DNA of 64,000 bases from Pseudoscleropodium purum (Eukaryota; Streptophyta; Bryopsida; Hypnales; Brachytheciaceae), in the NCBI GenBank assembly GCA_963969395.1, contig OZ017804.1, positions 17,050,001 through 17,114,000 on the forward strand. Reading direction: 5' to 3'. Positions 4,114-27,659 of this stretch are shown piece after piece; within the stretch, counting starts at the first letter, position 1; each line of letters begins with the position of its first letter. The position numbers were made by a program, and so were the translations under genes. The notes beneath the pieces were generated by a model. It saw nothing but the letters and a program-made list of their open reading frames with translations. It did no database searches and was not told where the DNA came from.

Positions 4114-4262
4114 CAGGGTTGACACGACGTCCGGACGCGGACGTTGTGTCCGCAGCGTTCGCTGACATTCGCGGTCTCGGCGGACGCAGCGCAGCGTCTG
4201 CCGGGACCGCCCCATCCGCCTGTTACCCCGTCCGCCCTGTCCGCCTTGCCCCGCGGTCACTC
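4114..4262. repeat. Left terminus and subterminal GTCCGC-rich array
   Basis: CAGGGTTGA is followed by a GC-rich stretch full of GGACG, GTCCGC and CCGCC words. The same left-end sequence appears in the MITE at 22176 and, inverted, at the right end of the nested element (15970-16080). Subterminal arrays of short words are commonly transposase binding sites in hAT elements; that role is inferred here. Confidence 0.75.
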
Positions 4263-4658
4263 CTTTAATCTTTAAACAATTAAATGTTAAATGAAGTGCA
4301 ATGGTTCGCGATTTGTTATTAAAACAATGTCTCTTATAATTTGAAAGATTATAAAGTTTGACCATGAGTCTATGATAGTCTTGAAACTATGAAAAAATTC
4401 CAATTCATTTTCAGAAGGCAAACTAAAAAAGTTTGTAACTTCAAATATATATATATATATACTATTTAAAAAATCAAGATCAACACAAATACAAACATAA
4501 TCAATATGGGCAAAATGTATTGAATTTAATATAGAATACCATACATTGTGCACATTTGGCTAATTGCACATATAATTTTTTTCATTCCAATTCTATATTT
4601 CTAAACTAATTTTTAATGCCTATATAACCTATTCAACTACTACTTCTGCACTACCAAT

Positions 4659-6152
4659 CTAATATAAATGGCGGAAATGTTCATCTGGCATCGGCCAACG
4701 ATATGTATTAGAAAATCGCGTAATTACATGGGCCAAACTAGTATTTTCATTGTCAGTCTTCGAAGAAATGCGCTTCAAGTAAGCATAAAACACTTTTGCA
4801 AAGTCATGAAAGGCAAATTGTGTCGCACTAGGTGTTTTAAATAGCACGTTGAAATACGCCTCTGACATGTTGTTTCCATTCATTCGTCGAGTAATTTTTC
4901 GAATGGCATATTCTTCCGACTTACGTGAATACATCGGAATGACTTCTACATCTGCACCTGCTTTATGCAAATATGCAATACGTGGATTCACCCACCATCT
5001 CCTCTACAAAGTCTGTTTCATCTCATCTGTTGATGTGAATGTGTACAAAGACTTCATTGGCTGAAAAGCAAAGGTGGTCATGCCTCAATCGCAAACTCCA
5101 ATGTACACATGTGACTCATCCTCTGGAAAATGCAACAAGATGTTGTCCGGAGAAAGATCATTGTCCAAATGTCCAGCAAGATGCACTGTATACATTATAT
5201 GCATAAAGGTCCATGTCAGCTCCGTGCGCTTCTTCCGATATTGCCCTAAACGGTGAGCTTTTACAACCTCCTCTTCGGTTGGATTCGTATACATCAAACG
5301 GATTTGAATGTTGTCTAGAAAGTCCTTATCCATATTCAACATTTGTCGAAGAGTTCCACCGTTCCACCAATACGCATAACCTTCACACGTCGTTCCGTGC
5401 ACCACAGCAAACCGTATCACACCCGCGTGTGGAATTCAAATAGCCATTGATTCGTTTTGATGTTTTAACTTTGCAAGATCGGGTCGAGTTTGGTGATGAA
5501 TGGATTTCTTTGCCGCAAATTTCCAATAAGGAAGTATTCTTGGACATCCTTCAATACGGACCTTTCGAATCATTGCATATCCACCTCTCATCGTTCTATC
5601 ATCAACAGCAATCACGCGTGCTGTATCTGGAAGTGCTATGAAGTGCTGTTTGTTCCTTTTCGCTTCGGCAACCCCATCATTGCTTTTTCACCAAGCAATC
5701 GAACCAATTCGATTGTGCCTTTTGGCGAATGGAGTACATCGCCCCCTAAATAAGTCCGCTTTCAGAATCACTTCTTCAAACTGTGCGTTATTGGGTTGAT
5801 ATTCCTTACCATATTTAACCAAAATGACTTTGGAATTCCACAAAGCGTCATGAACCTCATTCTCCAAACATTTGGTGAAGTGCGTTTTATGCATTTCGTC
5901 ATGCCACTTTGCCACATTCAATGCATCCAACAACATCTGTGTCATGTCTACCTTGAATTTAGACACGCACTCCTCTTGATATCTGATGTACTTATTGTCT
6001 AAAGACAATGTTGTTTCCGATTCATAAAATTGAACGATGCACTCGATCATGAATTTTTTGCATTCTTCCGAAGGACTTTGGCGAGCTACCTCCAAGTTTG
6101 ATGGTCCCTCTCCATGTTTAAGCTTTGCAACCTTCTTCTTCCCGTTCGGCAT
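4659..6152 (-). pseudogene. Kinase-like passenger gene of the giant element, copy A
   Basis: A single 498-codon frame runs from ATG at 6152 to the stop at 4659, broken only by in-frame stops at 5688-5690, 5421-5423, 5085-5087 and 5004-5006, with no frameshift. The part after about residue 180 reads as a protein kinase fold: GGYAMIRKV like the first strands with the ATP-binding lysine, GVIRFAVVHGTTCEGYAYW and NGGTLRQML like the hinge region, a catalytic loop DNDLSPDNILLHF, and a DWG-type magnesium motif whose Trp codon is now TGA. The first 150 residues (KKKVAKLKHGEGPSNLEVAR onward) are not recognised. The gene points toward the left terminus. Copy B at 14115-15586 is closely similar. In copy A the HxD histidine codon reads Asp. 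Kinase-like structure is fairly sure; substrate and activity are unknown. Confidence 0.75.
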
Positions 6153-6339
6153 CGTGACAAATGAAACTGATATAGATGAAATTTTCTAATTTAAATGTGA
6201 ATTCACACGCAAGTATTAAAAAAATTAGCAACAAGGGGGCCCCAATAAACCACTCTTGCCTTGCCTCGGAAAGGAGCCAATGGAGGATGAATCACCAAGC
6301 TCTTCGCTCCACCTTGCATTCACAAGAGGCAAAGTAAAA

Positions 6340-6436: not shown

Positions 6437-6444
6437 GCCCCATC
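6437..6444. repeat. Left target site duplication of the nested element
   Basis: GCCCCATC precedes CAGGGTTGA at 6445 and matches ACCCCATC at 16081-16088 in seven of eight positions, at exactly the expected distance from the terminus. Confidence 0.75.
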
Positions 6445-6600
6445 CAGGGTTGATGAATCTCTACGTCCGCCCCAAAATAGCGTCCATGCGTCTGGACGTT
6501 TGGACGCACGGACGCTAGCAGACGCAGTGTCCCTCCCGCCGTCGGAAGGCGAACGCGTAGGGCCAGGCGGACGGGCGGGGCGGCTTAGAAAACCCGTTTT
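6445..6600. repeat. Right-type terminus of the nested element
   Basis: Read on the minus strand this is the same terminal sequence as 27560-27659: GTCCG words, CTATTTTGGGGCGGACGT, then GAGATTCATCAACCCTG. A GC-rich subterminal array extends to about 6590. Confidence 0.8.
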
Positions 6601-7113
6601 GGGTTTTTTGTTTTGATTGTTTTTACCAATGAGAGATTGAGAGTGAAGTCATTTTGATTTTGATTTTTCTTATATTGCAATTGCGATTCAATAGAGTTGT
6701 ATATCACTATTTATGTAAAAGCTAAAATATGAAATATATTTTTAATTTTTTTTGTTGAATTTCATTTTGATTTAGAAACAAAATCACTTTAAAATCTAGC
6801 GAGATGTATATCATCAATAAACAAACAATTTTATAATAAAATGATTGAAGAAACCATTGTCATTTGTCAACATGAGCTCCATATATCATGAGCAACTAAA
6901 CAATTAAACATCTAAATTCACATCTCCACAATTCCTATGGACGCCAATCCACATCTCCTCTAACCTCAGCCCCACTACTCTCTCCTACAGCTCTCCGTTC
7001 AAAATCTTCATTATCGGAGTCATCTTCATTGTTGGAATCAAGTATCGTTGTCTCCTTCAAGTCTTCTCTCGAAGTAGGTTTACTCCCTTCTTTCGAATTT
7101 AATTTTTCTTTTT
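6601..7113. other. 3' flank of the transposase, no gene seen
   Basis: AT-rich sequence separates the terminal array from the reading frames upstream. I see no coding frame or RNA gene. It may hold the transposase 3' UTR. Confidence 0.5.
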
Positions 7114-7787
7114 TTACTTTGATAGAATGATTAAAGGCTTTTGAATAGGAACCTTTCTTTTCTTTCTATTTGACAAAGTAGCAACATTTTCATCAAGAGG
7201 GGTCCTATTCTTCACTGGAAAGATAGCAAAAGGTTGCATTTCTCTTTTCGCTTTCAACTTACTCGATTCTTGAACCATCAATCTCGATGTAGGGTCGACA
7301 TGTCCATGAACGGTTATCTCCACTTTGGCTTTCTTTTGAAGTAATAGAGTGCCGTTTGTTGATTTGATGGGTTCTTGCGCCATTCCTTTTTCTAAAATGC
7401 GAGCATGCAAAGATGCCAATGACATCCAATTACTATCCGTATCACTTAGGCTTGTAGGTGATGATGCTACTTTCCGTAGATTACTGCTTGTAGAAATTTC
7501 TTTGGAAATGTTCACTAGGCGTTTTCCATATCCAAAGCTTTGAGAATCATTCAATCGTGTGCTAACAGACTTCAACGGTATTGGTGGAAGAGCACTAGAT
7601 CTCGGTACTTCAAAAATTGACTTCATTGGCTCTTTTCCTTTATCATTCTTTACAATTGCTGAATTTGTGACTGCCATCCCAACTGAATCACTATTTTTCT
7701 GTACCCCAATATTTGGTTCCCTCTCATCACCACTATTATTGCCACATCTTTTGAAACATCCACCTCTATGACCGCATCTTCTCTTTT
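7114..7787 (-). pseudogene. Unidentified frame downstream of the hAT transposase
   Basis: An open frame of about 220 codons lies directly downstream of the transposase stop, in another frame. The upstream 30 codons include a cysteine-rich patch, RRCGHRGGCFKRCG, resembling a small zinc knuckle. The ATG-started part (7677 to 7114) is rich in Ser, Lys and Thr and ends in a basic stretch, NRKKRKVPIQKP, that could serve as a nuclear localisation signal. It may be a separate accessory protein, a further exon of the transposase, or the transposase C-terminus moved out of frame by an indel between 7787 and 7835. I do not recognise the family. Confidence 0.4.
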
Positions 7788-7834
7788 GTTATTTCCTTGC
7801 ACTACATTTAATACTACAGATGGAGATTGAGAAA

Positions 7835-10312
7835 TTAAAACTTCTTCATTCTCCCATCATCACCAATAGCATTCTCATTGATTTTCACTTCTTTGGCAAT
7901 AGCGTTTGCCTTTTCCGATAGAATGTTTTCGCTATTCAAGAATCCCATTCCATTGCAATATGCAGTTAAAGAAGGTAGATTCTCCTGTACCTCTACATTG
8001 TCCTCGTCTTCACAAAAGGTATATGCATCGTTTGCATTGTCGGGAATGACATCCTTGCGGTTTAGATGATAATCATGCGTATCATTCATCAAATCGGAAA
8101 AGCCTTCCATAACGTCTTCATCTCCCCATGCTGTCGCACGATTGAAGTCATCTCCACCATCTACAGCTGAAAGGGCCCTTTCCAAATCCTCGTCATCATC
8201 GTCTTCTAACGTGGGTCTATCTGAATCATCTGATTCCATCGGATCCACATTATCATTATACCATTTTTTTTCATCTTTTTCCTTCGATGCGTTTAATACT
8301 TTGGAATTGGTATACACGTACACCAAATCCGCTGCTCTCTCCGGCTTCAATTTATTTCGAGATTTGTTGTGAACAAAAGAATAGTTGCTCCAATTCCGTT
8401 CACATGAAGATGATGACACCGGTTGAGCCAATATTCTCTTCGCTAATGGAGCTATAAACTTGCCACATGCACCTTCAAAATCCCACCAAGCATGTGCGGA
8501 CAACATTTGATCTCCCGGATTCAACATATTGTGGAATGGAGGTTCCTTATGTCGAAAAGCTACAAATTCCTTCACTACTACTGCATATTCATCCAGTTTA
8601 CATATTCTCTCCAAAACTTTCTTACATCCTGACATTGCATCTGCATCATCCGCTAGTTCTTTGTCATGAAGAAGGTATGGATTCAAAAGAGCTGCAGCTG
8701 ATTGGAGATTGTTGTCCACCATTCTTCTTCGGGCATAAAAAGACTGTACCAATGGAATTGCAAGTTCTTCTAGCAAACAAAATGGTGGATTTTATAATCC
8801 GTTCACGTGCTTCTTTAACTTCCTCATGATATGCAACACCTTCCCCATGCATGGTGATTTTGAATCCAAATCGCGGAGTGCACATATGATTGGTTCAACC
8901 ATCTCCACATAATTGATGGACCGATTCCAAAAATGGTCATCAAGAACAATTTTCTTCACCACTAAGGCCAAGTCTTTTGGTTGGACTTTGGCTCCACGTT
9001 TCTTCTTGAGAGTATGTACAAACTCAACCCATTGCGGATCTACCACCGTTTGTTCCAATGCTCCTCTCAATTTTGTCAAACGCTCCATCATGATAAATTT
9101 AGAGGCGAACCTTGTATCCCCAGGCATCAAGAGACCAAGATTTGGCGAATACTTTCGCAATAGAGCTAGCGGCATATGTCTCTTCCTGATAAATTTAGCT
9201 ACAAGAACTCTTTTATCCAATTTGGAAGCAATCCGTTTCTGTGCAGCCCAATCCTTCAACAACAAATTCAATGCATGTACCACGCACCTTTGGTAAAAAA
9301 TATGAGGATATTTTGCAGATATTACATCTCATGCGGACGGATTCACGGGAGCATTATCCGTAGTTATTAACACGACGTTCTTGGACCCCACTTGTTCAAT
9401 GAACTTTTCCAACACAGCTGCCAAGTACTCTGCATTTTTTTCACAACCACTTGTATCCACAGATCCAAGAAATTCTTCACCTGCGGATGATACAAGCATG
9501 ACATTGATGAGAGGTCGATTAGTCACTGAGCTCCATTCATCAATGGACAATGTTGCTCCAAATTTTCGAATGCTATCTTCGGTCCATGCATTCAACTGTG
9601 TCTGAATGTTGGTCTTCGCCTCATTCAACAATTTGTACCGAAGTTCGTGGTATGAGGGAGGAATGTATGGCCTATCGAACGCAGCCGTTTTCTTCATTGC
9701 TTCCTTAAAAGCTGGATTTCGAGCCACGGAAAATGGTATGTTCGCCGAATAAAAAAAATTTGCCCACACTAAATGTAATTTGCGTCTATGACCTTCTTCA
9801 AACCCATTCAGTAAGCTGCCTTGCCTCTGAGGCCTAGAACTTGATGCCCTCGGGGTTTTAAGTTCACCAGAAGCTTCCGTACTCAAAGTCATTTCAGTTG
9901 TGGCACATACCATTGATACCAATTCTTTGGACGCTGGACAAGAGTCTTCGTGGTCAGAATGCGACACAGCCTTTTCGGCCGAAAACTCTTGGACATCTGA
10001 AGGGTCAGGGTTGCCATCCACATTGTCCATTACAACGCGTTTAGGAAAAACTCCTTCGCAATGCCGAAATAAATCTCGAACTGCCATTGATAATCGTGGA
10101 CAAAGGCTCACCGCTTTATCACGTACACCTCCAGGCCCAGAATAGCCTAAGTGGCTGAACATACGGCTGAGCTTCCTTGACATGCTTGCTTTGTAAAGCC
10201 TACATTTTACTTTACCACCCTCTTGCACACTAAACCAAGGAGAAAAATCCCCCGTTGGTTTGGCCACCATACTGATAAGTGTATGTTTTACCTCAATTTC
10301 AAAAGAAACCAA
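7835..10312 (-). pseudogene. hAT transposase (BED finger, DUF659, hAT dimerisation), broken by two stops
   Basis: One frame of 826 codons runs from 10312 to 7835, with in-frame stops TGA at 9329-9331 and TAA at 8792-8794. Residues about 23-75 resemble a BED zinc finger (PWFSVQEGGKVKCRLYK), though the second metal cysteine appears as Tyr. From about residue 190 comes the DUF659/RNase H-like part: FYSANIPFSVARNPAFKEA, LSIDEWSSVTNRPLINVML, NVVLITTDNAPVN, then HALNLLLKDW and GDTRFASKFIMMERL. Residues about 600-680 hold the hAT C-terminal dimerisation motif (WWDFEGACGKFIAPLAKRIL, SSSSCERNWSNYSFVHNK), followed by an acidic tail. The length suits a plant hAT transposase. It points toward the right-type terminus of the nested element. 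As it stands it encodes only fragments. It is the only transposase found in the whole composite. Confidence 0.92.
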
Positions 10313-10559
10313 TAAAATGTTTTAAATTTGAAACCCACAATGTGACAATGTATACAATATCAATGAAATTAGTCACACAAAGCTTTGAAAATCAAAGCCC
10401 CCGTCCACCGAACTATGCATTACCAAGCAAGAGACTCAATAAATTGAAGCTCATAGCCCTTGGAAATCTTAGCGTTCGATTTTTCGAGAGTGAATACCAA
10501 AGCTTCTCTTCTAACATTTATAGTCCCCTCCAAAAAAATTAAAGGTTCATTTTTAGGGT

Positions 10560-10830
10560 TTCCATTCAAAAACAAGCAACGGCCCGGACGGGGCTGAAGC
10601 GGACGGGTGGACGGGGCAGACGGGGCGGATAGGGCGGTCGGACGGGGCGGTCGGGCGGACAGGCCAGACGGGGCGGACGGACGGGTCGGATGGGCGGACG
10701 GGGTGGTCGGACAAGGCGGTCGGACGGGACTGTCCGCACTGTCCGCCTTCCGACGCCGTCCGCGCTTTGAACACACCGACCGCCCCACTTAAACACTGAC
10801 CGCCGACGGCGTCCGCCCAACTGTCCATTG
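10560..10830. repeat. GTCCGCC/GGCGGAC array upstream of the transposase
   Basis: A dense array of GGACGGGGCGG and GGCGGAC words sits at the junction of transposase and filler. Its outer part (10730-10830) is the inverted counterpart of 23260-23350 in the giant element. Long open frames read through it on both strands, but they are Arg/Pro-rich repeats of the array and are not counted as genes. Confidence 0.75.
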
Positions 10831-13220
10831 GAGCATCCTATGAGGCCGATATTACTCAAAAAGAGCAGTAACATTTCCAAAAAAAAACAGCCTAATAATC
10901 ACTGCTAAATGAGGATCAATGTAATTGATTTATCATTTTTTTTATTTTTAATGTAAACCCTAAATCCTATACCCTAATTACCCTAAACCATTTCTTTTCT
11001 CCCCTAAATTGTTTTACGAATGAGGGGAATGTGGTTAAGTTGAATATGTTTGTATTATTTACTCATATTAACCTTCTAAATAGGTTTTGAGAAGATTTGA
11101 AGATGGTGGGGATTTTTTTAAAGTTCATTAGGAAATCAAATGTTTTGCAGAAATAGTCAATTTCTTTTTCATTGTAAGCAAATGAAATTTTTTAAAAAGG
11201 CCCCAATACATAATTAGAATAACAATTTAATGGATTTCAACCTCATGATATTTAATGAAAGGTTGTGATTTCTAATTAGAAGTGCATCACGATCTTCAAA
11301 TGAGCATCGAGTCTTTCATATTTTTTAATGAAATTTTGATTAGATTTGAAAACAAAGAAAAAGAATCAATATTTAACTTTCAAATCATATATGGCTATAT
11401 TTTTCCTTAAAAACATAGAAAAATTTGTTACTTGAGTTGGTTGAGTAGAATACATTATACATGATTACATGTGCTATATTTATTTTGAAGGATAATTCCA
11501 ATATTCTTATTTAAGATGTTTTTAAATATTAATTTTAAAAAAGACGGTTCATTGTTTAAAGATCTAAAAAATTGACAAACATAATTTCTATTATAAATAG
11601 GAATTGAATTCGGAATTCAAATTTTGAAATGATTCAAATGAACAAGATATTGATTATAAAATATTTCTTCGTTTGAGTTTTCAAAATGAATTCACGAAAC
11701 AATTGCAAACTTTTGAACTTAGGTATATGATATTGTTTTCAGTTTGTACTTTGTAGAGTATAATATTTCAATTTTAATCCTAAATAAATGAAAAACTCCA
11801 TATAAATGAAATGTTTCTATGTACTGCACAAAGATTTCTACCAATTACTATGATAATTAAATACATTGTTACATTTCATAAAATATTCTACATAGAAAGA
11901 AAAAATCATTTTAGTTTTCAATCATGATAAACAATGTCTTCTACTTTTTTTGTTATATGTTCATTTTGTATAACGTGTACATTGTACAATCTTTGAGAGC
12001 AAGGTAGTTCATTTTTGACTCTCATTGAAATAGAAAATATATTTGTGTTTGGATTTTGAAATCATTATGTATTCTACGGTCTTGCAAGAATGCATCTTGT
12101 TCCTTTCTTTGAATCCTTTTGATATTTTCTTTTTGTCGTTGCTTTCTCGTAGGGCTCTTGTTTTCTTGTTCTCTTCATTTGACCAACCTATTTGACTTGG
12201 CTCTTAGTTTTTTGTTTTTTTTAATGCAATGGTTTATGCATATGTTATAAAAAATATATATTATTTATTTAAAATTAATATATTGATGAACAAACGCATA
12301 AAGGCATTCAATGCTTTCACATTTAAAGTTATAAATCTATCATAAATCACTCTTGCAAATTTGAATGATTCAATCGAAAATTTGAAAATGTAATTACAAG
12401 AGCTTTCAATTCAATCAATTGCATAAATCATAAATGTTGAAATGCAACTCATATGAGTTTAGCATCTATGAAGATTAATTCATGCCATCCACATGCAATT
12501 TTCCAATTTAATAAAATGCAATTGAGTACTTCAATTTCTTTCTCTTCAATTCTCCAAGTAACATTCACTTCATATCTTTCTCTATTTGTTTATTTAATTT
12601 TTGGGAACAAATGGAGAAACCATCTTTGTTTATATTTGCACATGCACTCTTATTTGATTGATGAAGAATAGATCTATGAAATATATAATCATTGATTTGT
12701 TCATGTTGATTTATCTAATATATTTTATATATGTATATATATTTATATATATATATATATCATTAAAGGAGTATGGAAGACAAGATTGACAGATTGTGTT
12801 CGAATGTTGTTGATTTTGAAATGATTTAGTACTATATCATTTATAAGAATATTATAATAGTGTTATGTTATAATATTCCTAAAACAATTGCAACAAATAT
12901 TAAATACATGCTAAGTTAGGTTTGTTAGCCTACCAATTGTTCATTAATAGACATAATTGAGTAGCCTCCTTAAATGAAACATTCAATATCTAATATCTTA
13001 CAATCCAAATGGTGGATTTGTCTAAAATTTTTTCCACATCTTTTCCAACTAATTTACTACAAGATCCTATAGTTACATATGCCCAAAAGTATTTTTCTTC
13101 TAAGACTTGGTATTTGCATTACTAATTGCAGTTTTGAAGTGCTTTTAGGGAAAAGAACTTTAGGGGTTAAACATCTATACCGTGAGATTTTGAAAAAAGA
13201 ACAATTTGCTTCATTGGGGA
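10831..13220. repeat. AT-rich filler module, nested-element copy
   Basis: This 2.4-kb stretch is the inverted, near-identical counterpart of 20571-23255 in the giant element, apart from the MITE present only there. No convincing gene is seen. A 72-codon frame at 12453-12671 recurs at 21114-21332 with few changes, but the two copies are so alike throughout that this says little about coding. The last 200 bases (about 12980-13170) resemble the end of the TTAA-type repeat at 45640-45822. The 5' UTR or promoter of the neighbouring module could lie here. Confidence 0.75.
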
Positions 13221-13614
13221 TAACTATAAGTCCATGCTCTTTTTCGATAGCCAAAACACACTTGCAAGGACTTGGACATTTAGCGGTTTACTAAGTGATT
13301 AGACGTCAACTAATTCAATTTAATAGTAGAATTTTTATTCAACTACCTTCTTATAATTGCTTTATACACAATGCAACGTGAATATTTGGGTACTTATATT
13401 AAACGTCGCAATCCTTTCGTGAATTTTTGCACATTTTAGCTCATATCTTTGTACAAAAATATCATTTACCAAGAATTCATAAATTTGGTCATAAAGGAAG
13501 GTACCTTTTTTAATTTCAAATTTTACATTGAATGAATGAAAAGTTAGTTGGACTATACAGTGTCATGAAGACATTTGTTTATCGTGCAAAATATGGACGT
13601 CGAAGTGCTTCAGG

Positions 13615-13925
13615 GTGAAACCGCCCTGTTCGCCCTCGTACCCGTCCGCCCTGTCCGCCCCGTCCGATCCGATACCTGTCTCCCGTCCACCCCGTCCGCC
13701 CCGATACCCGTCCGCTCCGAAACCCGTCCGCCTTGTCCGTCCGATCCGGCGTCCGCCCTGTCCGTCCCGTCCGCCCCGATATCCGTCCGCCCTGATACGG
13801 CCGTTCGCCCCGGACCGTCCGATTGGGCGGACGGGGCTTTAGGGTTTTAGGGAGGCGGACGGCCGATCCGTCCGCCACCCCCGGCCCGTCTGATCGGGCG
13901 GACGGTTTAGGGCCGTCCGCATTGT
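13615..13925. repeat. GTCCGCC array upstream of kinase copy B
   Basis: Dense CCCGTCCGCC, GTCCGATCC and CCGCCCCG words occur here. The part near 13800-13925 matches, inverted, the array of the giant element that the nested insertion split (6340-6444 plus 16081-16155). Open frames through the array are Pro/Arg/Ser repeats and are not counted as genes. Confidence 0.75.
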
Positions 13926-14114
13926 CACTTTGCTTTGCCCCTTGTGAATGCAAGGTGGAGTGAAGAGCTTGGTGATTCATCCTCCATTGGCTCCTTTCCG
14001 AGGCAAGGCAAGAGTGGTTTATTGGGGCCCCCTTGTTGCCAATTTTTTTAATACTTGCGCGTGAATTCACATTTAAATTAGAAAATTTCATCTATATCAG
14101 TTTCATTTGTTACG

Positions 14115-15586
14115 ATGACGAAGGGGAAGAAGAAGGTTGCGAAGCTTAAACATGGAGAGGGACCATCAAACTTGGAGGTAGCTCGCCAAAGTCCTTCGGA
14201 GGATTGCAAAAAATTCATAATCGAGTGCATCGTTCAATTTTATGAATCGGAAACAACATTGTCTTTAGACAATAAGTACATCAGATATCAAGAGGAGTGC
14301 GTGTCTAAATTCAAGGTAGACATGACACAGATGTTGTTGGATGCATTGAATGTGGCAAAGTGGCATGACGAAATGCATAAAACGTACTTCACCAAATATT
14401 TGGAGAACAAGGTTCATGACGCTTTGTGGAATTCCAAAGTCATTTTGGTTAAATATGGTAAGGAATATCAACCCAATGACGCACAGTTTGAAGAAGTGAT
14501 TCTGAAAGCGGACTTATTTAGGGGGCGATGTGCTCCATTCGCCAAAACGCACAATCGAGTTGGTTCAATTGGTTGGTGGAAAAGCAATGATGGAGTTGCA
14601 GAAGCGGAAAGGAACAAACAGCACTTCATAGCACTTCCAGATACAGCACGCGTGATTGCTGTTGATGATAGAACGATGAGAGGTGGATATGCAATGATTC
14701 GAAAGGTCCGTATTGAAGGATGTCCAAGAATACTTCCTTATTGGGAGTTTGCGGCGAAGAAATCCATTCACCACCAAACTCGACCCGATCTTGCAAAGTT
14801 AGAACGTCAAAACGAATCAATGGCTGTTCGAATTCCACACACGGGTGTGATACGGTTTGCTGCGGTGCACGGAACGACGTGTGAAGGTTATGCGTATTGG
14901 TGGAACGGTGGAACTCTTCGACAAATGTTGAATATGGATAAGGACTTTCCAGACAACATTCAAATCCGTTTGATGTATACGAATCCAACCGAAGAGGAGG
15001 TTGTAAAAGCGCACCATTTAGGACGATATCGGAAAAAGCGCACGGAGTTGACATAGGTGTTTATGCATATAATGTATGCAGTGCATCTTGCTGGACATTT
15101 GCACAATGATCTTTCTCCGGATAACATCTTGTTGCATTTTCCAGAGGATGAGTCACATGTGTACATTGGAGTTTAGCTTCTCAGCCAATGAAGTTTTTGT
15201 ACACATTCACATCAGCAAATGAGATGAAACAAACTTTGCAGAGGAGATGGTGGGTGGATCCACGTATTGCATATTTGCATAAAGCAGGTGCAGATGTAGA
15301 AGTCATTCCGATGTATTCACGTAAGTCGGAAGAGTATGTCATTCGAAAAATTGCTCGACGGATGAATGGAAACAACATGTCAGAGGCGTATTTCAACGTG
15401 CTACTTAAAACACCTAGTACGATACAATTTGCCTTTCATGACTTTGCAAAAATGTTTTATGCTTACTTGAAGCGCATTTCTTCGAAGACTGATGATGAAA
15501 ATACTAGTTTGGCCCATGTGATTACGCGATTTTCTAATACATATCGTTGGCCGATGCCAGATGAACATTTCCGCCATTTATATTAG
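14115..15586 (+). pseudogene. Kinase-like passenger gene of the nested element, copy B
   Basis: This is the second copy of the kinase-like gene, pointing toward the left-type terminus at 16080. The first 313 codons are open, starting MTKGKKKVAKLKHGEGPSNL. They include GGYAMIRKVRI with a candidate ATP-binding lysine near residue 197, and GYAYWWNGGTLRQML near 258-272. A TAG at 15054-15056 stands where copy A has Trp. The frame continues with the catalytic loop HNDLSPDNILLHF (Asp near 332, Asn near 337), here with the canonical HxD histidine. A 22-bp loss near 15173 then removes the DWG motif and shifts the frame. The remainder, MKFLYTFTSANEMKQTL to MPDEHFRHLY, is open at 15188-15586. Total length is 22 bp less than copy A, so this is the net length difference between the copies. 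Confidence 0.75.
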
Positions 15587-16757: not shown

Positions 16758-18021
16758 TTATTCGGAATCTGAATCGGACTCAAATTCTTGACCGCTGCCT
16801 CTTCTTTGTACTCCAATGAACGGACCACCTCCGTAGTTTCTGTAATATCCACTCGGTGCACCTCCTTGTCCATAATTTGAACCTCCAAAAGTAAGAGGAG
16901 GAATCGGAGTAGTAGGCTTTGATCCTCTTTCATTTGAAGCCCCATAATAAGAGGCCCCATGATGCCCATATGAATCACTTTTAGTTGATCCCGGATAGTA
17001 TTGGGCGCTTCCGTGAAGAGAGCAACTATACTACGGGGTTACATGGCTTCCTCCACTATCTTCGGAGCCCACTTGAGTGGGCGTCGTATAATATGAACCA
17101 GATTCACTAGACCTACCATAGTGCGTGTTGCCATAGCTACCTGCTCCACCTTGAGAGCCAATTTCAGGGGGAGTGCCATAATGAGAATCAACTGCACTTG
17201 AACCACCATAATGCGTGGATCCATAGCTCCCTCTTCCACCTTCATATTTATTTTGAGGATCGTAATCAGAGTATGAACCACCTCTTCCTTGTTCAGATCC
17301 TCACGTTCCACGTTCACGTTTGTAGGACCCACCATGCCTATCTTGCCATCCACGATCTTGAAGTCTTCTGCGTGTTGCCTCTTGCATTTGTTGTTCGAAT
17401 TCAATTCGTTCTCGTTCTTCTACTTGCGCGTGCCTAACTCCAAATGTGACAGGCGCTTACATATCATCGTCATCATCGTCATCTATCCACGCATCTTCAG
17501 CATCTTGTAGAACAACTGAAGGTTGTTGTAGATAACCTCGATTGGACCACTTTGGCATGCAATCGTTTGCACCCCTCCACTGTGTATCTTTAAACGGCAT
17601 CCGTACGTGTATAGTTCTCCACATTGCGACTTGTAGCGGCATGCCAGTCCACGTCCTTGTGGAGTACAATCTCTGCCCAAACCATTGCCATAACATTATA
17701 ATTCATTATATTTGGTTTGACGCTTTTAATGCCAAGAACTCGATGCACTTGTGTGTATCGTTGTTTGAAGTGCTCACTTTGGTACGTAGACATTTGTCCT
17801 TCCCAACGTGGCGCTTGGTGCTCTACACGTTCACGTCGCCAAAGTTTTTGAATGTGAATCATTTTCACATACTTCTTGCACATTGAGCAATCCCACACTC
17901 TTGTTGGTTCCTCTTCCCATCCCGGTTCACCCACGCACAATGGATCGGCCCAAGCATCCCAATCGAACAATTGGGGTCTTCCCTTTCGACTACTTTTTTT
18001 GGGTGTTCTATCTTTCGGCAT
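16758..18021 (-). pseudogene. Zinc-finger-like protein with Gly/Tyr/Ser-rich tail
   Basis: The ATG is at 18021 (MPKDRTPKKSSRKGRPQ). The N-terminal part has an acidic, Trp-rich segment followed by WDCSMCKKYVKMIHIQKLW; the pattern C-x2-C, then His at 56 and 68, looks like a small zinc site. The same motif occurs in the RING-type gene at 23731. A one-base frameshift falls between about 17590 and 17690. The second frame runs from 17696 to the stop at 16758-16760, with three in-frame stops (17457-17459, one near 17301, one near 17037), each explained by one C-to-T change in a CAA, CGA or CAG codon. That frame has an Asp run (WIDDDDDDDM), a charged segment (IEFEQQMQEATRRRLQDRGW), then about 170 residues of low complexity such as GRGSYGSTHYGGSS, AGSYGNTHYGRSSESGSYY and GYYRNYGGG, ending ESDSDSE. 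The tail resembles prion-like RNA-binding protein regions; function is unknown. Confidence 0.6.
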
Positions 18022-18199
18022 GATGAAACCGAAGCAAAGAGAATGAAACAATTAGAAAGCTTAAGAACCAAAATTTTGATTTAATGAATTAATTAAAATT
18101 TTACAAGCGTGAACTTTGTAAAAATTTGTAACAATGTCACAACAATCATTCACTCAAAGCGGAGGGGGCACGCAGAGCTCCCAAGACATTGGTCCGCCC

Positions 18200-18412
18200 A
18201 CTCCAAAAGAGAACGATTGTTCGGAATGAGCCGTCCGCCTCCTCATATATATCTGCAGACGCTCCGAGGCAGACGTCCAGATCATGCGGACCACATCAGT
18301 CCACGTGTCAATCGGACGCTTGTAACCGGGCGGACGAGTATCGGGGCGGACAAGGCAGACGGAGGACGGGGCGGACATGGCGGACGCCGGATCGGGTAGA
18401 GAGGAGCGCACT
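18200..18412. repeat. GTCCGCC/GGCGGAC array
   Basis: GTCCGCC and GGCGGAC words cluster at the upstream border of the Gly/Tyr/Ser-rich gene. Confidence 0.65.
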
Positions 18413-20400
18413 TTAGGAACACACGGGGTGTTTGGCTGCAACTGTTTGTTGTATACTCGGTGTCTTCTTCAATCTTCAGTCTTCAAACGGTGCTCGTTAG
18501 CCTATCCTGTGTAGGCTCTAGATAGGTATAAGGGTCAAGGAAGGGATAAGAAACCACGAGATACGGGACGGGTAAAACGGGACAGTAGACACGAGCTACT
18601 GTCCGAATGATGGGATCCTAAACTTCAAATTCACGGTCTGCTAGCCAAAACTTCAGACCATGAGAACAAGCAAGTCTCGACCATGTAGGCCATTAACCCC
18701 ACTTCGTCACCACGATAATAAATGGGGTTGAGTCTTGGTTTTACCCAGACCGCCCGCAACCAGGGTTACAAAGCAAAAGGAAATAAAAGACAACGAGCCT
18801 CTAAATCAGGCTAGGAATAACAAAGCCACATCCCACACATACATATTAAAAAATCCAAAACATTCCTCTTCAAGTCTTCAATCTTCAAGTCTTCATGTTT
18901 TGATAAAAACAATGAGAAATCTTCAAAGCCGTACTCTAAAGTAGCTGCGGCCTTTTATCTAGTGCCACAGATGGCTCACAACTCCAAATGCTAAGTGAAA
19001 TAGCACTTTGGAAAGCTAACTCAGTAACCTAACACCTCTTTAAATTTCACTTTATTCTAAACTACTGTCCAAAAGTTATAGGCAAACAAAGTGGTAGCTC
19101 TTCTCCTCCTTGCCAACCAACCACTGCCTCTTCAAACTTCTTATAACTTTTGATTTACAAACCCTGAACACAAGTGTGATAGCAATTTGAAAAGCTAACA
19201 CATCCGGCTACAATATGTGAAAATTTCACTAAGAACTAAAACTTTGTCCATAAGTTACAGCCCAACAAAATCTCGGTCTCCTATTTTGAGAATCCACTCA
19301 ACCTCATAAAATTTTCAAAAGAAATCCTTATACTGACCGAAGGTTATGGCCCTCCAAAGTTTCAGCCTTGCTCTTCACAAGTGGCAGTCAACCTCCAAGT
19401 CATCACATCTCCATAACTTCTTCCTCCAAACTCCAAATCTTAAGTTTAATGACTCTTTGGAAAGCTAAGATTAAGATAAACATGCTTCCAAAGTCCCTTT
19501 GCAAGTTGATGGACTGAACGTCAGCTATGGCTTGACAAAGTCTCAGCCTTTCTTCATGAAAGGCACTAAAACTCCTCAAATTCAAACGCTCATAACTTTT
19601 TCATCCTAACTCCAAATCAAACTTGCAAATTCATTTTAGAAAGGCAATTTTACAAGGAACAATCTCACTAAATTTCATTACCAAAGGCCTCATACAATGG
19701 GAGATATCACTCCTCGAAGTTTCGAATTTTCTTTTCCACTCAAGTTTCTCTATTCACTCCTACACACACACACCAAAAAGAATCTCTCCACACTCTCCTA
19801 CACCCCCATTTCAAGCAAGGAGGTGGGGCACATCAGCCCATACTCCTCTCCTTTCAAGCCCCACCAAAGATGCCCCTTTCTTTTCACTTATTTTTTAATT
19901 TTTCAAATCCACCTAATCCCTTAATAATTTTATTTAAATGGAAATGTAAAAACACATGAGCCTTCCAATCAACTAGATAAGTAAAATTAAATGAACAAAC
20001 CTAATAAAAAAAATCACTAAAGAGTAGCCACGTGCCTTTATGGGTATAAAAGTGTTGAAATTCATCCTCCAGTCGCCAAGTCGCGGACTTGGTTGGCTGG
20101 AGAAGCGGTGGTCTTTGGTCGCCTGCCGGTCCGGGTTCGAATCCAATTGGACCCGTCGAGCGGCTTGGGTGGCCTACGGCTTGGCAAGCTAGTGAGGCAG
20201 AAAATTGAACCAGCCAATCCGCCATCTATCCCCCCTGAGCTGTGCCTGTGACAAGACGGTGCAACATCCGAATGCTAACGGGCGCTTCGTTGCATCAAAC
20301 CGTGGTTCTCACCACGACCAACTCCTTTTATCTCAACTCCTTGTTTATTGAAACTCAAACACACAAAGCTTAGTAGATGTATTTACATGATGGAAGAATT
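18413..20400. other. Repeat-bearing module, probably an old retroelement insertion
   Basis: No reading frame is supported. From about 18960 to 19700 a degenerate unit recurs roughly four times, with cores CATAACTT, AACTCCAAATC and CTTTGGAAAGCTAA near 18979, 19150, 19425 and 19605. Base composition is less AT-rich than the filler. The stretch lies between two GTCCGCC arrays like the other modules. A SINE-like sequence sits at its right end. It may be a decayed LTR retrotransposon, but I found no clear LTR pair, primer site or protein remnants. Confidence 0.4.
20075..20335 (+). mobile_element. tRNA-derived SINE
   Basis: A perfect RNA polymerase III B box, GGTTCGAATCC, is at 20134-20144. A loose A-box-like TTGGTTGGCTGG at 20089-20100 lies 34 bases upstream, the right spacing for a tRNA-type promoter. 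The sequence does not fold into a complete tRNA in my reading, and about 190 bp of unrelated body follow, ending near a T-rich stretch at 20328-20345. Exact ends and target duplications are not resolved. Confidence 0.55.
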
Positions 20401-20404
20401 TCCA

Positions 20405-20545
20405 TCAGGACACCAGGCAGACGGAGGACAGGGCGGACAGAGGACAGGCGGACGAATATTGCGGCGGAAGGGGCAGACAGGGCGGACGGAGAACGGGGCG
20501 GACGGGTATCGAGGCAGACGGGGTGGACAAGGCGGACTACTCACC
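20405..20545. repeat. GGCGGAC array
   Basis: Repeats of GGCAGACGGGG, GGCGGACGG and GGACAGGGCGGAC mark the left border of the filler module. Confidence 0.65.
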
Positions 20546-20572
20546 TTAAACCCTAAACCCTAAACCCAATGA
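20546..20572. repeat. Short telomere-like tract
   Basis: Three consecutive AAACCCT units follow the GC array directly. The plant telomere unit is TTTAGGG, but such interstitial tracts are also common in plant promoters and repeats. Confidence 0.6.
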
Positions 20573-23255
20573 AGCAAATTGTTCTTTTTTCAAAATCTCA
20601 CGGTATAGATGTTTAACCCCTAAAGTTCTTTTCCCTAAAAGCACTTCAAAACTGCAATTAGTAATGCAAATACCAAGTCTTAGAAGAAAAATACTTTTGG
20701 GCATATGTAACTATAGGATCTTGTAGTAAATTAGTTGGAAAAGATGTGGAAAAAATTTTAGACAAATCCACCATTTGGATTGTAAGATATTAGATATTGA
20801 ATGTTTCATTTAAGGAGGCTACTCAATTATGTCTATTAATGAACAATTGGTAGGCTAACAAACCTAACTTAGCATGTATTTAATATTTGTTGCAATTGTT
20901 TTAGGAATATTATAACATAACACTATTATAATATTCTTATAAATGATATAGTACTAAATCATTTCAAAATCAACAACATTCGAACACAATCTGTCAATCT
21001 TGTCTTCCATACTCCTTTAATGATATATATATATATATATAAATATATATACATATATAAAATATATTAGATAAATCAACATGAACAAATCAATGATTAT
21101 ATATTTCATAGATCTATTCTTCATCAATCAAATAAGAGTGCATGTGCAAATATAAACAAAGATGGTTTCTCCATTTGTTCCCAAAAATTAAATAAACAAA
21201 TAGAGAAAGATATGAAGTGAATGTTACTTGGAGAATTGAAGGGAAAGAAATTGAAGTACTCAATTGCATTTTATTAAATTGGAAAATTGCATGTGGATGG
21301 CATGAATTAATCTTCATAGATGCTAAACTCATACGAGTTGCATTTCAACATTTATAATTTATGCAATTGATTGAATTGAAAGCTCTTGTAATTACATTTT
21401 CAAATTTTTGATTGAATCATTCAAATTTGCAAGAGTGATTTATGATAGATTTATAACTTTAAATGTGAAAGCATTGAATGCCTTTATGTGTTTATTCATC
21501 AATATATTAATTTTAAATAAATAATATATATTTTTTATAACATATGCATAAACCATTGCATTAAAAAAAATAAAAAACTAAGAGCCAAGCCAAATAGGCT
21601 GGTCAAATGAAAAGAACAAGAGAACAAGAGCCCTACGAGATAGAAAGTAAAGGAAAAAAAAGAAAATATCAAAAGGATTCAAAGAAAGGAGCAAGATGCA
21701 TTCTTGCAAGACTGCAGAATACATAATGATTTCAAAATCCAAACACATTAACACAAATATATTTTCTATTTCAATGAGAGCCAAAAATGAAAAATGAACT
21801 ACCTTGCTCTCAAAGATTGTACAATGTACACATTATACAAAATGAACATATAACAAAAAGAGTAGAAGACATTGTTTATCATGATTGAAAACTGAAATGA
21901 TTTTTTCTTTCTATGTAGAATATTTTATGAAATGTAACAATGTATCTAATTATCATAGTAATTGGTAGAAATCTTTGTGCAGTACATAGAAACATTTCAT
22001 TCATGTGGAGTTTTTTTATTTATTTAGGATTAAAATTGAAGTATTATACTCTACAAAGTACAAACCAAAAACAATACCATATACCTAAGTTCAAAAGTTT
22101 GCAATTGTTTCATGAATTCATTTTGAAAACTCAAACGAAGAAATATTTTATAATCAATATCTTATTCATTTGAATCAGGGTTGAAACGACGTCTGGACGC
22201 GGACGCTGTGTCCGCAGCGTTCGCTGACATTCGCGGTCCGGTGGACACAGCGTCCGCTTGTCCCCCGTTCGTCCGTCCGCCCGATTACGGCCGTCCGATC
22301 GATGCGCGGACTGATCTGATCCACACGATTTGGGCGTCCACCTCGGGCCGTCTGCCCCGCCCCGCCCGTTCGCTTTCCAACGGCGGTCGGGACGCTGTGT
22401 CCGCTAGCGTCCGTGCGTCCGGACGTCCGGAAAACGGACGCTATTTTAGGGCGGACGTTGAGATTCGTCAACCCTGATTTGAATCATTTCAAAATTTGAA
22501 TTCCGAATTCAATTCCTATTTATAATAGAAATTATGTTTGTCAATTTTTTAGATCTTTAAACAATGAACCCTTTTTTTTTAAATTAATATTTAAAAACAT
22601 CTGAAATAAGAATATTGGAATTACCCTTCAAAATAAATATAGCATATGTAATCATGTATAAGTGTATAATGTATTCTACTCAACCAACTCAAGTAACAAA
22701 TTTTTCTATGTTTTTAAGGAAAAATATAGCCATACATGATTTGAAAGTTAAAACATTGATTCTTTTTCTTTGTTTTCAAATCTAATCAAAATTTCATTAA
22801 AAAATATAAAAGACTCGATGTTCATTTGAAGATTGTGATGCACTTCTAATTAGAAATCACAACCTTTCATTAAATATCATGAGGTTGAAATCCATTAAAC
22901 TGTTATTCTAATTATGTATTGGGGCCTTTTTAAAAAATTTCATTTGCTTACGATGAAAGAAGAATTGATTATTTCTGCAAAACATTTGATTTCCTAATGA
23001 ACTTTAAAAAAATCCCCACCATCTTCAGATCTTCTCAAAACCTATTTAGAAGGTTAATATGAGTAAATAATCCAAACATATTCAACTTAACCACATTCCC
23101 CTCATTCGTAAAACAATTTAGGGGAGAAAAGTATAGGATTTAGGGTTTACACTTTTTTTTTTTAAAATGATAAATCAATTACATTGATCCTCATTTAGCA
23201 GTGATTATTAGGCTATTTTTTTTTTGAAATGTGACCGCTCTTTTTGAGTAATAAT
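20571..23255. repeat. AT-rich filler module, giant-element copy, with nested MITE
   Basis: Inverted and near-identical to 10831-13220, except for the 301-bp MITE plus its duplication at 22168-22484. The copy without the MITE preserves the empty site. No gene is seen. Confidence 0.75.
22176..22476 (+). mobile_element. Nested hAT MITE, 301 bp, with 8-bp target duplication
   Basis: CAGGGTTGA (22176-22184) and TCAACCCTG (22468-22476) are perfect inverse ends, flanked by ATTTGAAT at 22168-22175 and 22477-22484. The related filler copy near 11620-11640 has one uninterrupted ATTTGAAT followed by CATTTC (on the opposite strand), which is the empty site. The first 70 bases match the left end of the giant element and the last 70 its right end. 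It is therefore a deletion derivative or a minimal member of the same family, and the GTCCGCC words fill its whole body. Confidence 0.93.
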
Positions 23256-23530
23256 GGCCTCATAGAATGCACCAATGGACAGCTGGGTAGACGCCGTCGG
23301 CGGTCAGTGTTTAAGTGGGGCGGTTGGCGTGTCCAAAGCGCGGACGGCGTCGAAAGGCGGACAGTGCGAACAGTCCGGTCGGACGGGGTAGTCGGACGGG
23401 GTGACGGGCGGACAGTGCGTCCGCTGCCGAAGCGGACGTTGTCGGTCCGCTCGGCGGACGCGAGGTTCGGGGCCGCTTCATGCAGTTCGGAGCAGGTCCG
23501 GCGGCGGATGGCTATAAGGGTGGAGTGACT
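23256..23530. repeat. GGCGGAC array upstream of the RING-type gene
   Basis: The part at 23270-23365 is the inverse of 10730-10820 in the nested element, after which the two diverge into different genes. This marks the point where the transposase and RING-type modules replace each other. Confidence 0.75.
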
Positions 23531-23730
23531 TTCATTTCTTCTCACTTCAATTCTCCTTTGGTGCCAAGTTGGATGTGCTACTATTGCTTTATGTGCTAGT
23601 TGCTCCTACGGGGTGGAGAGTTGGGGTCCTCTATCTTTTGTTACTGTGTTACGGTTGATGCCATCACTTTTGACTATTACGTGAGATTTTTTTATTCACT
23701 TCAATTGGTTATTGAATCCAATTGACAATC

Positions 23731-26700
23731 ATGAACGGCAAAGGTAATCGAAATATTGATGGGGTGACTCCGGGAAGCGAAGCCAAGAAAAAGAGCAAAG
23801 TGAAGGGGGCTACACATGACCTTCGGCTTGACATTTTAAATGATCCTACAATTAAAGCAGAGAGCGGGTGGGAAGATGAAGACGCAGAGTATTGGACATA
23901 AAAAATGTGCAGGACCTATGTTAAAATGTACCACATTGACAAGTTGTGGCCTCAGGAGTCGCACAAGAGTCATACACGGGATTTTTGTTGTCAACCATGG
24001 ACTTGCAAGAACAAACATTTTGTCCATCGATCTGCGGAGGCGTGGCGTGTTCTATTCGGAAACAAGCCCAGAAGCAAAGGCTATATTAATTATAGCGTGG
24101 TGTGTATGGTTTACACTGAACTTATATTAGAGCGCAAAATCGATTGGAGCACGTTTCCGACAACAACAGCTTGCCCACTTCTACTTGAAGCCAATCAAAA
24201 GGACATTCCCGACTTGTACAATTCAGAGGGAGAAACAGAAAAAGTATTAAAAAATACTATTGAGGTGAAAACGGATGGTGTGGAGAAAGCCTCAAATGTT
24301 GAAGAGTTACGGTCTATACAATCTCCAACAAAAGTAATCAATGAAAACTCTTCGAAAAATGTGGGGAAAGATGTGGAGAAAGATGTAGAGGTGTAGGAGG
24401 GTGAAGTCTTTTCCACAGCTCCAACGCGTTTGACCTTTACACCAATTGTTGTGGCACAAACGCAAACAGAGTTTTGTAAACGAAGGCAATGTTTGCACGG
24501 AACGCGGGAAAACTTCAAAAAGTAAAGTAGACGAAGTCTTGGGGGAAAAAGTGGCAAAGGCTAATGCTACAATTGATAGTTTGATAGCCAACAATTGTTT
24601 TGATAGTTTGGTCTACAAATCTCCGCCTATGCATCAAGGCGTTGAATCTAGTCCAGCGTTAAGTTTAGAAGACAAAGTACATACGCCTCGTGGACAAGGC
24701 GTGACGATTGATAATATATCCTCATTATGGAGTTCCGAGCGTAAAAAGCGAGCGGAGGAGTTTCCATTTACAGCGTCATTGCCGAGTCCTCTACATCGAA
24801 CCTTGCAAGACATGTCTAATCCAAAACAATTGGAAAATCTTTTGAAGCTCTCGGTTTAGTTTGCTAACCTTCATGAAGAAATAGGTGGATCATCTAACCC
24901 CAATGATGGTGCTACTTCTGTTCCAATGAGTCCACTTGCAGGTCCAAAGAATGTTGCACATATACTTGATACAGCTTTCAAGATGACGATGTCAACTGAA
25001 TTTTTATCTGAAGTTGCTCCGACTTTTATGAATTTGGCCAAGGAGTTTTCTTTAATGGCACTAGAGATGTTGAAAGGTGCTATAGCATTTCAGAATCTCA
25101 CGAAGACTTTCGGACCACTTTTCGAAGAAAGAGATGTTCATATACTACAATTGCTGGAATATGAGAAGAAAATTGCTGACCTTGGAGGAGTGGAAGCAAG
25201 GTGCAAAGTGTTGGAGTTGAAATTAAAGACTTCGGAGAGTGAGGTTGAACATTTAAATGAACAATCATCGAAGCAAATGGAAGAGTTGATGAAGATGCGT
25301 AAACAGACTACAGAATTACAAGGGACCTCCAAGAATCCGAGTGAGGTTGCAATCTCACCAGTGATTGTACTCGGAGACAGTCAAGAGACTCAAAAGAGTG
25401 AAGATAAGCTCTCTCTTCCTTTTGATAAGGCCGAAGCAAGCGACAACCCTGCCATTGTGAATGTACAAGAAAGTCACCACATGAGCATGTTAAAAGCGAC
25501 ACAACAACCATCAATGAAAAAGCTTTCATCTGTTTACGTAAATGCGGAGACGCAAACAGAGAGTTGTGTCTTTGAAAAGTTGAAGTATAAATTGGAGGAG
25601 GCAATTGAAGCAAAAAGAATTGTTGAATCCGAGTTGAATCGATTGCAATTGTGCTTGAATTTGAAGAAGTTTATGCCATCTAGCGGCTTGGAGTCTCAAT
25701 GGTTAGCATGGGTACAAAGACTTCAAGATAGACCCTCTATAGTATCTCAAGCAATGGCAGGTCTTCAAACATTGGCAATGGAGTCGAATGAAAATTGCAA
25801 TGCCTTTCAAAGCTCTTTAAGTTGGTTCAAGACTATGTTTGACCAACATCCTTCAAAGGGATATACGGAGATCACATGTTGGGGAGACATGAATGCCATG
25901 TTTGAGCGGTTAAACCACACAAAGAAGGACTAAGTTCCACCCATGAATTGGGCCTTGGAAGTAGAGGAAGGATGGGTCCCTTACAACACACTTTCAGCAC
26001 ACATCAATGTGAAAGACAAGCGAGTGGTGCATGCTTGTGATCCAGCCTCTCCAATCTTGGATGGTTGTTGTAGCCTTTGCCAAGGCTTCTTTGGACTGGA
26101 AGGTGCAGTAACCATGGGCCAATATTGCCACTCTTTCCATGTCACTTGCATTGTGAAAGCATCACTTATTCGTTCGGTATGTACCGAGTGTCGTAGTCCA
26201 TTGAGTGCTAGGTTCTACGAAATGTTTGGTATCTTGGAAGCTATGCCTCCAAGCCACAAGTACAATCGTTGGAATCTTCCTCTTGATCAAGCGCTGTACA
26301 AATTCCAAAATTATCAACATTGGGGGAAGCCAATCCGGTGGAATGCAAATGAACAAAGGCATGATTTGTACGAGGAATCTGAGCAACCATTGGATTTGGA
26401 TGTGTGGATGACTCACAATAGAGAGGTGGAATTGCGGGCTCGAGGAATCGTAGATGACGCGACCTGTGAAATGTTTTGTCGCAACATGGGGGGACATTGG
26501 AGCTTGCAACACGAAAAGTTCTTTTGTTTTCTAGATAAAAAAGTGGAGAGAGGACCAAAAGACAGTTGGGTGGAGGTGAACCATGGAAAAAAGTTCGATG
26601 AGCAGTATAAGGCATACAACCACACCCTCGTAGGTAGGGCCCTTCTATTGTCGAAGTTGGAAGAGGCTGCAAAAGTTCGTGCTGTCTACGATACAAATGG

Positions 26701-27181
26701 ACAAACAAGCACAGGACATTCATCTGTAAATGTGGCAGCAACATTTGATAGGCGCATTGGCGATATTATAGGGCATTGGAAGGCTTTCCTATTGGATGGA
26801 GACTGCCTCACAGTATGGCAAGGGAAAGGAGATGATGAAGTTGTTTAAGCGATGGTAAATCGTGTGGAGAGCAACTTGAGAACCTTGAAGGTAGACGAAG
26901 TCGATTTATCACCAAAAAAAGAACAAAAAAGGAAGCGTGAAGAGGACGATGACTTCTCTCCGGAAACCAAGAAACAATTTCATAAGGTGGACATCAAAGT
27001 TCAATCTGGAGGGCGAATAGTCCGTTCAAGTCAACAACGGTCAACTCGTCAATTCTCTGCTAAACTCCTCGGTACAGCAGATTTTCCTTTTGTTTTGGGA
27101 GAAGGTAGTGGTCCATCTGGTGGAAAGTACGATTTGAAGAGAATTTTGTTTTTTAAAAACAATGGTCCTTTCATTGTTTAA
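23731..27181 (+). pseudogene. Large passenger gene: zinc-finger-like N-terminus, coiled coils, RING-like finger
   Basis: ATG at 23731 begins a unit of about 1,150 codons. It has in-frame stops at 23899-23901, 24394-24396, 24857-24859, 25931-25933 and 26846-26848, and a one-base frameshift near 24471-24476. After removal of that shift, everything from about 24475 to 27181 lies in one frame. The N-terminus carries KMCRTYVKMYHIDKLW, shared with the gene at 16758-18021. Coiled-coil segments lie near 25120-25320 (VEARCKVLELKLKTSESEVE) and 25570-25660. A RING-like finger spans 26069-26203: CSLC, then YCHSFHVTCI, then CTECRSPL. Its central Cys-His spacing is one residue shorter than the usual CxH. 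The end is basic (KKEQKRKREEDDD). A RING finger suggests ubiquitin ligase or protein-binding function, but the rest is unrecognised. The gene occupies the slot held by the transposase in the nested element. Confidence 0.65.
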
Positions 27182-27429
27182 AAACAAAAAAGAATGTGAA
27201 AGATTTAGATCTTAAAAAGATTGTATAGGATTCAGTAGTGATATTGGAACTATGTTTTCATGTATTTTGTTTATACATATATATTTATATATAAAGATGC
27301 TATATTTTCATTTGCGTATAAAAATATTTTTATATGTACATCTTATTTTACGTGGATGCATTCATTTGTGATTGTGTAACATTCAAATTACATAACAATA
27401 TAAAATTTTCTAATGACTAATGGTAATGT
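27182..27429. other. 3' flank of the RING-type gene
   Basis: Short AT-rich stretch with TATATATTTATATATAA near 27280. Probably 3' UTR; nothing else seen. Confidence 0.4.
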
Positions 27430-27659
27430 GAAGTCCGCCCTGTCCGTCTGCCCCATCTAGTCTGTCCGCCCAACCGCCCTGTCCGACTGCCCCGTCTGCC
27501 CTGTCCGTCCGACCCGTTTGGCTTGTCCGCCTGACCGCGCCGTCCGACCGCCCCGCCCATCCGCCTTCCATCGGTGGGAGGGACGCTGCGTCCGCTAGCG
27601 TCCATGCGTCCGGAAAACGGACCCTATTTTGGGGCGGACGTTGAGATTCGTCAACCCTG
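27430..27659. repeat. Right subterminal array and terminus of the giant element
   Basis: GTCCGCC, GTCCGAC and CCGCCC words are followed by GGGGCGGACGTTGAGATTCG and TCAACCCTG. The final 70 bases match the right ends of the MITE and, inverted, of the nested element. Confidence 0.85.

Follow-up and report, generated by a model that had tools for sequence, protein, structure and literature searches.

How 23.5 kb of moss DNA came to lie between two perfect hAT-type ends is the question raised by positions 4114 to 27659 of a 64,000-nucleotide stretch of Pseudoscleropodium purum contig OZ017804.1 (here, the window). The original prediction, made from the letters alone, read the block as one cargo-bearing hAT transposon that had moved whole with a kinase-like and a RING-type gene. 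Here, we report that the block is four stacked insertions and not one giant element: an 11.6-kb outer element is interrupted by a 9.6-kb reversed relative, a 2.0-kb dispersed repeat, and a 301-bp MITE (Table 1). Its span of 23.5 kb is an artefact that nesting produced; the stack, once nested, may later have moved together.

Table 1. Coordinates of the outer element, its insertions, and their genes in the window
Feature	Position	Strand	Remarks
Left copy of 8-bp duplication ATTAAATA, outer element	4106..4113	.	
Outer RING-type hAT element	4114..27659	+	~11.6 kb without the three insertions; all genes broken
Outer kinase gene	4662..6176	-	Full length; 4 in-frame stops; 90% identical to intact 505-aa copy of T3
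Left duplication GCCCCATC, nested element	6437..6444	.	
Nested transposase-type hAT element	6445..16081	-	9,637 bp; left end 16081, right end 6445
Nested hAT transposase gene (DUF659, Dimer_Tnp_hAT)	7144..10372	-	2 stops and frame changes
Nested segment B	10706..13218	-	AT-rich spacer between divergent genes
Nested kinase gene	14091..15583	+	1 stop and a frameshift
Right duplication ACCCCATC, nested element	16082..16089	.	
Outer gene 2	16761..18051	-	N-terminal domain common with gene 3, then Ser/Tyr/Gly-rich tail; broken
2.0-kb dispersed repeat	~18384..20416	.	Absent from E1-E3 and T1; borders blurred by GC-rich repeats
Outer segment B	20565..23397	+	Interrupted by MITE
MITE, same family, 301 bp	22176..22476	+	Duplication ATTTGAAT on each side
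Outer gene 3	23716..27127	+	N-terminal domain, coiled-coil-like part, RING finger, C-terminal part
Outer element, right end	27560..27659	-	
Right copy of duplication ATTAAATA, outer element	27660..27667	.	

The outer element begins with CAGGGTTGA at 4114 and finishes with its exact inverse at 27659; the original prediction had placed these ends (4114 and 27651-27659), with ATTAAATA directly outside both, exactly where they lie. The window contains six occurrences of the 9-mer end, where shuffled sequence averages 0.50 (0 of 100 shuffles reached six); the outer ends and their 8-bp duplication are not due to chance. With up to one mismatch allowed, the window holds five plus-strand starts and eight minus-strand ends; when their flanks are required to differ at no more than 2 of 8 positions, just two pairs remain, 4114/27659 and the MITE pair 22176/22476, and both match exactly. 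The additional ends at 6445, 22176, and 22476, which had gone unmentioned, are signs of nesting. An end-like 9-mer at 34744-34752 was rejected as a family end; it lies inside the frame of a lectin receptor kinase and is probably a chance match. That gene, of the L type (Lectin_legB plus Pkinase), runs as a single frame from 34545 to 36755, outside the transposon, and suggests a plant host.

Comparison of the window with itself shows the layers. Positions 4180-6403 recur inverted at 13855-16057 (93% identity), and 10706-13218 recur inverted at 20565-23397 (91 to 97%), where the MITE interrupts the second copy. The outer remainder and the nested element follow a common plan of left end, left gene, AT-rich spacer, right gene, and right end. 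Approximately 12 kb of the block consists of further insertions (6445-16081, ~18384-20416, and 22176-22476). Subtracting the nested element and MITE leaves 13,592 bp, and removing a further 2,033 bp leaves ~11.56 kb; this agrees with relatives of 11.6 kb, which sets the true unit at about that length. These relatives came from a search of the genome (313 Mb, 52 contigs), in which three full-length RING-type copies (E1, E2, and E3) and three transposase-type copies (T1, T2, and T3) were picked from the top of the hit lists and not at random. Between the same ends, E1, E2, and E3 measure 11,677, 11,589, and 11,588 bp; they are collinear with the outer element once its nested element and MITE are removed.

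Two other accounts of the block concern its outline. That a single 23.5-kb element was mobilised whole, as originally proposed, would fit the perfect outer ends and duplication; however, all three insertions are absent from 3/3 full-length RING-type relatives, which have the same ends and genes in 11.6 kb, the nested element and the MITE bring ends and duplications of their own, and the 2.0-kb repeat is found dispersed elsewhere in the genome, which together contradict the claim and leave this account very improbable. It is barely conceivable that the left and right ends derive from two independent insertions and were paired by accident: the block does contain several ends of one family, but an exact 8-bp duplication is found only for 4114/27659 and the MITE pair, and the relatives join the same two ends through the same internal sequence, so that E1-E3 already contradict it. 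We keep the nested stack as our reading, and with it the caution that several later insertions may lie hidden between ends and duplications that match perfectly.

The nested element ends in CAGGGTTGA and a degenerate TCAACCTTC, and its duplication (GCCCCATC/ACCCCATC) matches at 7 of 8 bases. It is collinear along its entire length with T2, a layout also seen in T3, and it contains the only hAT transposase recognised in the block (Dimer_Tnp_hAT, E value 1.8e-9; DUF659, E value 7.6e-24; T3 gave 3.5e-9 and 1.3e-21, respectively). The site of the MITE is empty in the nested copy, near 11630, and the spacer of T1 has received another MITE of this family (L053/L054, element coordinates ~6679-6974). 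For the 2.0-kb repeat, 40 of 632 candidates were scored and most match in two pieces, and the idea that this piece is freshly captured host DNA was rejected, as it is a dispersed repeat; most scored copies have ~80 to 90 bp between the two pieces that are missing from the window copy (18384-20416). GC-rich TCCGCC tracts of the hAT family serve as insertion sites for the nested element (6437-6444), in T3, and at the right flank of E3. The GC content of the insertion flanks was 0.72 and 0.66 in T3 (L057/L058) and 0.73 at the right flank of E3 (L051). Insertion into the family's own TCCGCC tracts may reflect self-targeting or the abundance of the tracts alone.

Further loci with both ends and 8-bp duplications, for which the original prediction had proposed a search, are present in the genome. 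Of 482 candidates for the RING part, 39 other copies were scored, at 96% identity, and of 580 for the transposase DNA, 39 were scored, at 97 to 98%; the candidate numbers come from a loose first look and are not copy counts. The 8-bp duplication matches at 8/8 bases in E2 and 7/8 in E1. Slices of ~10 kb upstream were taken for 20 of the 26 remaining RING loci; the left end lay within the slice at 12 and not within it at 8. Eight of those 12 have exact duplications, one is exact over the six bases visible (L023, 6/6), two have one mismatch, and one has none. RING-type copies with both ends examined thus carry the duplication in 13/15 cases (nine exact, one exact over six visible bases, three with one mismatch), and it is lacking in E3 and L022. 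L027 and L041 have common flanks and are probably a single insertion that was duplicated. The right end was found downstream of 28/29 RING loci outside the window. Two RING copies that lie 31 kb apart on one chromosome, inverted, are 99.3% identical over 3.2 kb, and in each the match stops precisely where the right end does, which together suggest recent movement; no left end was found for either. The hAT-type assignment of the ends is supported by these relatives, which have matching ends and 8-bp duplications of their own, and the original prediction was also right that the kinase and RING genes are part of a mobile unit, since genomic copies carry the same genes between the same ends.

Transposase-type copies T1, T2, and T3 measure 11,250, 9,682, and 9,545 bp and have exact 8-bp duplications in 3/3 cases. 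They have the ends and the left kinase gene in common with the RING type, and a hAT transposase takes the place of the RING gene; the kinase is present in all four transposase-type copies examined (T1-T3 and the nested element). T1 holds gene 2 as well, which places this gene in both types. The family is of two types, with common ends, a left kinase, an AT-rich spacer, and a right module that is either the transposase or the RING gene, found as whole units between 8-bp duplications. Among end loci outside the window, 7/7 left ends run on into the kinase, and of seven right ends five continue into the transposase side, one into the RING side, and one into neither. The 40 transposase, 39 RING, and 86 kinase matches include 11 neighbouring pairs, 10 of them in the divergent order of the elements (chance expectation, ~0.35 per module); one of the six transposase-kinase pairs has the wrong geometry. 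Stop-free kinases were found in 4/5 pairs in transposase-type order and 0/5 in RING-type order, small numbers from a list ranked by score.

Stops or frame changes break the genes in both window elements; the original kinase-like and RING-type labels are right. The left gene encodes a diverged protein kinase of ~500 aa with 42 homologues in a database of public genomes and metagenomes. Residues K217, H332, D334, N339, D357, and G359 of the catalytic AxK, HxDxxxxN, and DxG motifs (Lys, His-x-Asp, Asn, and Asp-x-Gly) are invariant in 20/20 aligned homologues. Pfam Pkinase matches 7/8 homologues, all below the cut-off, and PK_Tyr_Ser-Thr lies above the cut-off in one. All 50 listed PDB matches of the predicted structure (pLDDT, 73.5) are kinases, with a coarse fit (rmsd, ~10); by sequence, the PDB gave one weak match, and a viral structure library gave generic kinases only. 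Searches with only two peptide patterns gave 11 matches in bacterial and archaeal genomes and 8 in viral contigs, none of which was confirmed as a kinase relative. In the moss genome, 86 of 1,506 kinase candidates were scored, all 48 to 50% identical to the query, and 36 of the 86 are free of stops.

Gene 3 encodes a RING-finger protein with 41 homologues; zf-RING_2 lies above the cut-off in homologues P0003 and P0017 and below it in the window copy. That copy has several stops and frame changes, and, read against the eight-zinc-ligand pattern of RING-H2, a Tyr in place of one RING Cys. The N-terminal domain of gene 2 is 39% identical to that of gene 3 over 105 residues, and its Ser/Tyr/Gly-rich tail (16761-18051 and relatives) presumably resembles the low-complexity regions of condensate-forming proteins. 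No transposase domain was found by profile search in the larger frames of the outer element, and the RING type is thus taken as non-autonomous. The transposase of the other type is ~1,100 aa long, with many relatives of 960 to 1,200 aa.

The module genes may also occur together outside this genome. A contig size of 27,639 bp is given for both kinase P0066 and transposase P0097, and one of 45,926 bp for both RING protein P0011 and transposase P0094, from the same source; the entries give sizes and no contig names, and the equal sizes suggest that each pair shares one contig. A pairing of kinase P0047 with transposase P0109 (both 3,215 bp) was set aside, as their sources differ and the element layout would not fit.

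Substitution counts, which ignore the exact tree and CpG effects, set the kinase apart from the RING gene. Across 13 kinase copies (five of those compared were selected for being unbroken), substitutions found in at least two copies were 49 synonymous to 55 nonsynonymous (omega-like ratio, 0.44; P = 4.3e-5), and private substitutions were near neutral at 0.75 in six unbroken and 0.88 in seven broken copies. A smaller count over two kinase parts gave 0.39 and 0.53 (for the first, only 7/15 sequences passed). In 30 copies of the RING part, the ratio was 1.30 for shared (P = 0.31) and 0.67 for private substitutions (P = 0.026); for the coiled-coil part it was 0.85 and 1.21, respectively, neither significant. 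Four transposase copies gave 1.18 shared and 0.70 private, with no clear constraint, and gene 2 gave 0.30 for shared substitutions, on 14 changes. By this measure, the older substitutions of the kinase show purifying selection and those of the RING gene do not; selection thus preserved the kinase in the amplifying lineage and did not visibly preserve the RING gene.

Trees of two segments, kinase and spacer, both place the outer RING-type element with the nested transposase-type element (supports, 0.995 and 0.975), apart from E1-E3, which group together (0.897 and 1.000). By these groupings, the outer copy either is a chimera, with a left half from the transposase lineage and a right module of the RING type, or was converted by its nested neighbour.

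With high confidence, we read the block as a decayed RING-type copy of 11.6 kb, hit by three insertions and belonging to a large hAT family in which the transposase type would be the helper and the RING type the passenger; this confidence covers the anatomy and the helper/passenger reading and excludes the target of the kinase. Ac moves Ds in trans. In the same way, the transposase type, which probably is or was autonomous, would mobilise the RING type by supplying a transposase in trans that acts on the ends common to both; those ends are the sole basis for this step. Less certainly, the kinase may be a working part of the element, with the transposase or a host silencing factor as a possible target, for example. 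Any benefit of the RING gene to the element is putative. More tentatively still, and as a possibility that we would not favour over its negation, the family may form a two-part system with shared ends and a selected kinase, in which transposase and RING modules are swapped and transposition and anti-silencing or copy control are spread over cooperating types that use one transposase.

The reading that competes with a working kinase is passive capture: the kinase and RING genes would be host genes that were picked up, as in Pack-hAT elements, and would have no role for the element. Gene-bearing non-autonomous hATs are described in the available portions of two reports (PMC8903248, PMC6710886), and the shared RING substitutions look neutral, as capture would have it. 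Against this stand the kinase in the transposase-bearing type (4/4 copies examined), the purifying selection that its shared substitutions show, the lack of a diverged host-like parent among the 86 scored of 1,506 candidates, and the equal contig sizes that suggest kinase with transposase (27,639 bp) and RING with transposase (45,926 bp) elsewhere; passive capture is, in our view, rather unlikely. In the maize Pack-hAT, also a non-autonomous hAT with coding DNA, the accessible text describes captured host coding DNA, whereas the genes here are full length and one is shared with the transposase type (PMC8903248).

The kinase-carrying family agrees with the hAT superfamily (Ac/Ds, Tam3) in its short CAGGG-type inverted ends, 8-bp duplications, transposase with DUF659 and Dimer_Tnp_hAT, and non-autonomous and MITE derivatives; it differs in units of 9.5 to 11.7 kb, transposase relatives of 960 to 1,200 aa, and a kinase in both types. 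For comparison, the sections available of a 2018 survey give a longest plant hAT consensus of 7,144 bp and no moss hAT (PMC6027215). hAT elements with cargo are already known, for example in fungi, and, within the accessible parts of these sources, the closest precedents are fungal. The histone-H3 hAT of Pseudocercospora fijiensis (9.5 to 9.9 kb, 8-bp duplications, DUF659, and 471 copies with the captured gene) is of the same size class, with the same duplication length and domain, but it carries a housekeeping gene whose host parent is known (PMC6710886, in part); the cargo here is a divergent kinase family that bears a sign of selection and for which no parent was seen, and there are two alternative right modules. 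Fungal DNA transposons that carry TET/JBP genes, as far as the source extends, include hAT7 and an IS3EU element with an alpha-kinase gene opposite the transposase; as here, accessory enzyme genes are regular parts and kinase and transposase lie in opposite orientations, but the IS3EU case involves another superfamily, another kinase class, and fungal hosts, and hAT7 makes 7-bp duplications against 8 bp here (PMC12730594). No plant hAT with a kinase gene was found in the literature searched, whose coverage was partial, so absence is not proven; a hAT lineage with a selected kinase and interchangeable transposase and RING modules looks like a new form of such cargo-bearing elements. If the kinase works for a plant hAT, a long-studied superfamily would gain a new class of helper protein, and two types that swap transposase for RING would illustrate the way in which accessory functions are recruited and shared by cut-and-paste transposons, so far mostly studied in fungal elements.

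Elsewhere in the window, positions 44899-48732 hold AT-rich inverted and direct repeats (74 to 77% identity), and 45644-45755 and 47833-48001 resemble 110 to 170 bp of segment B of the transposons.
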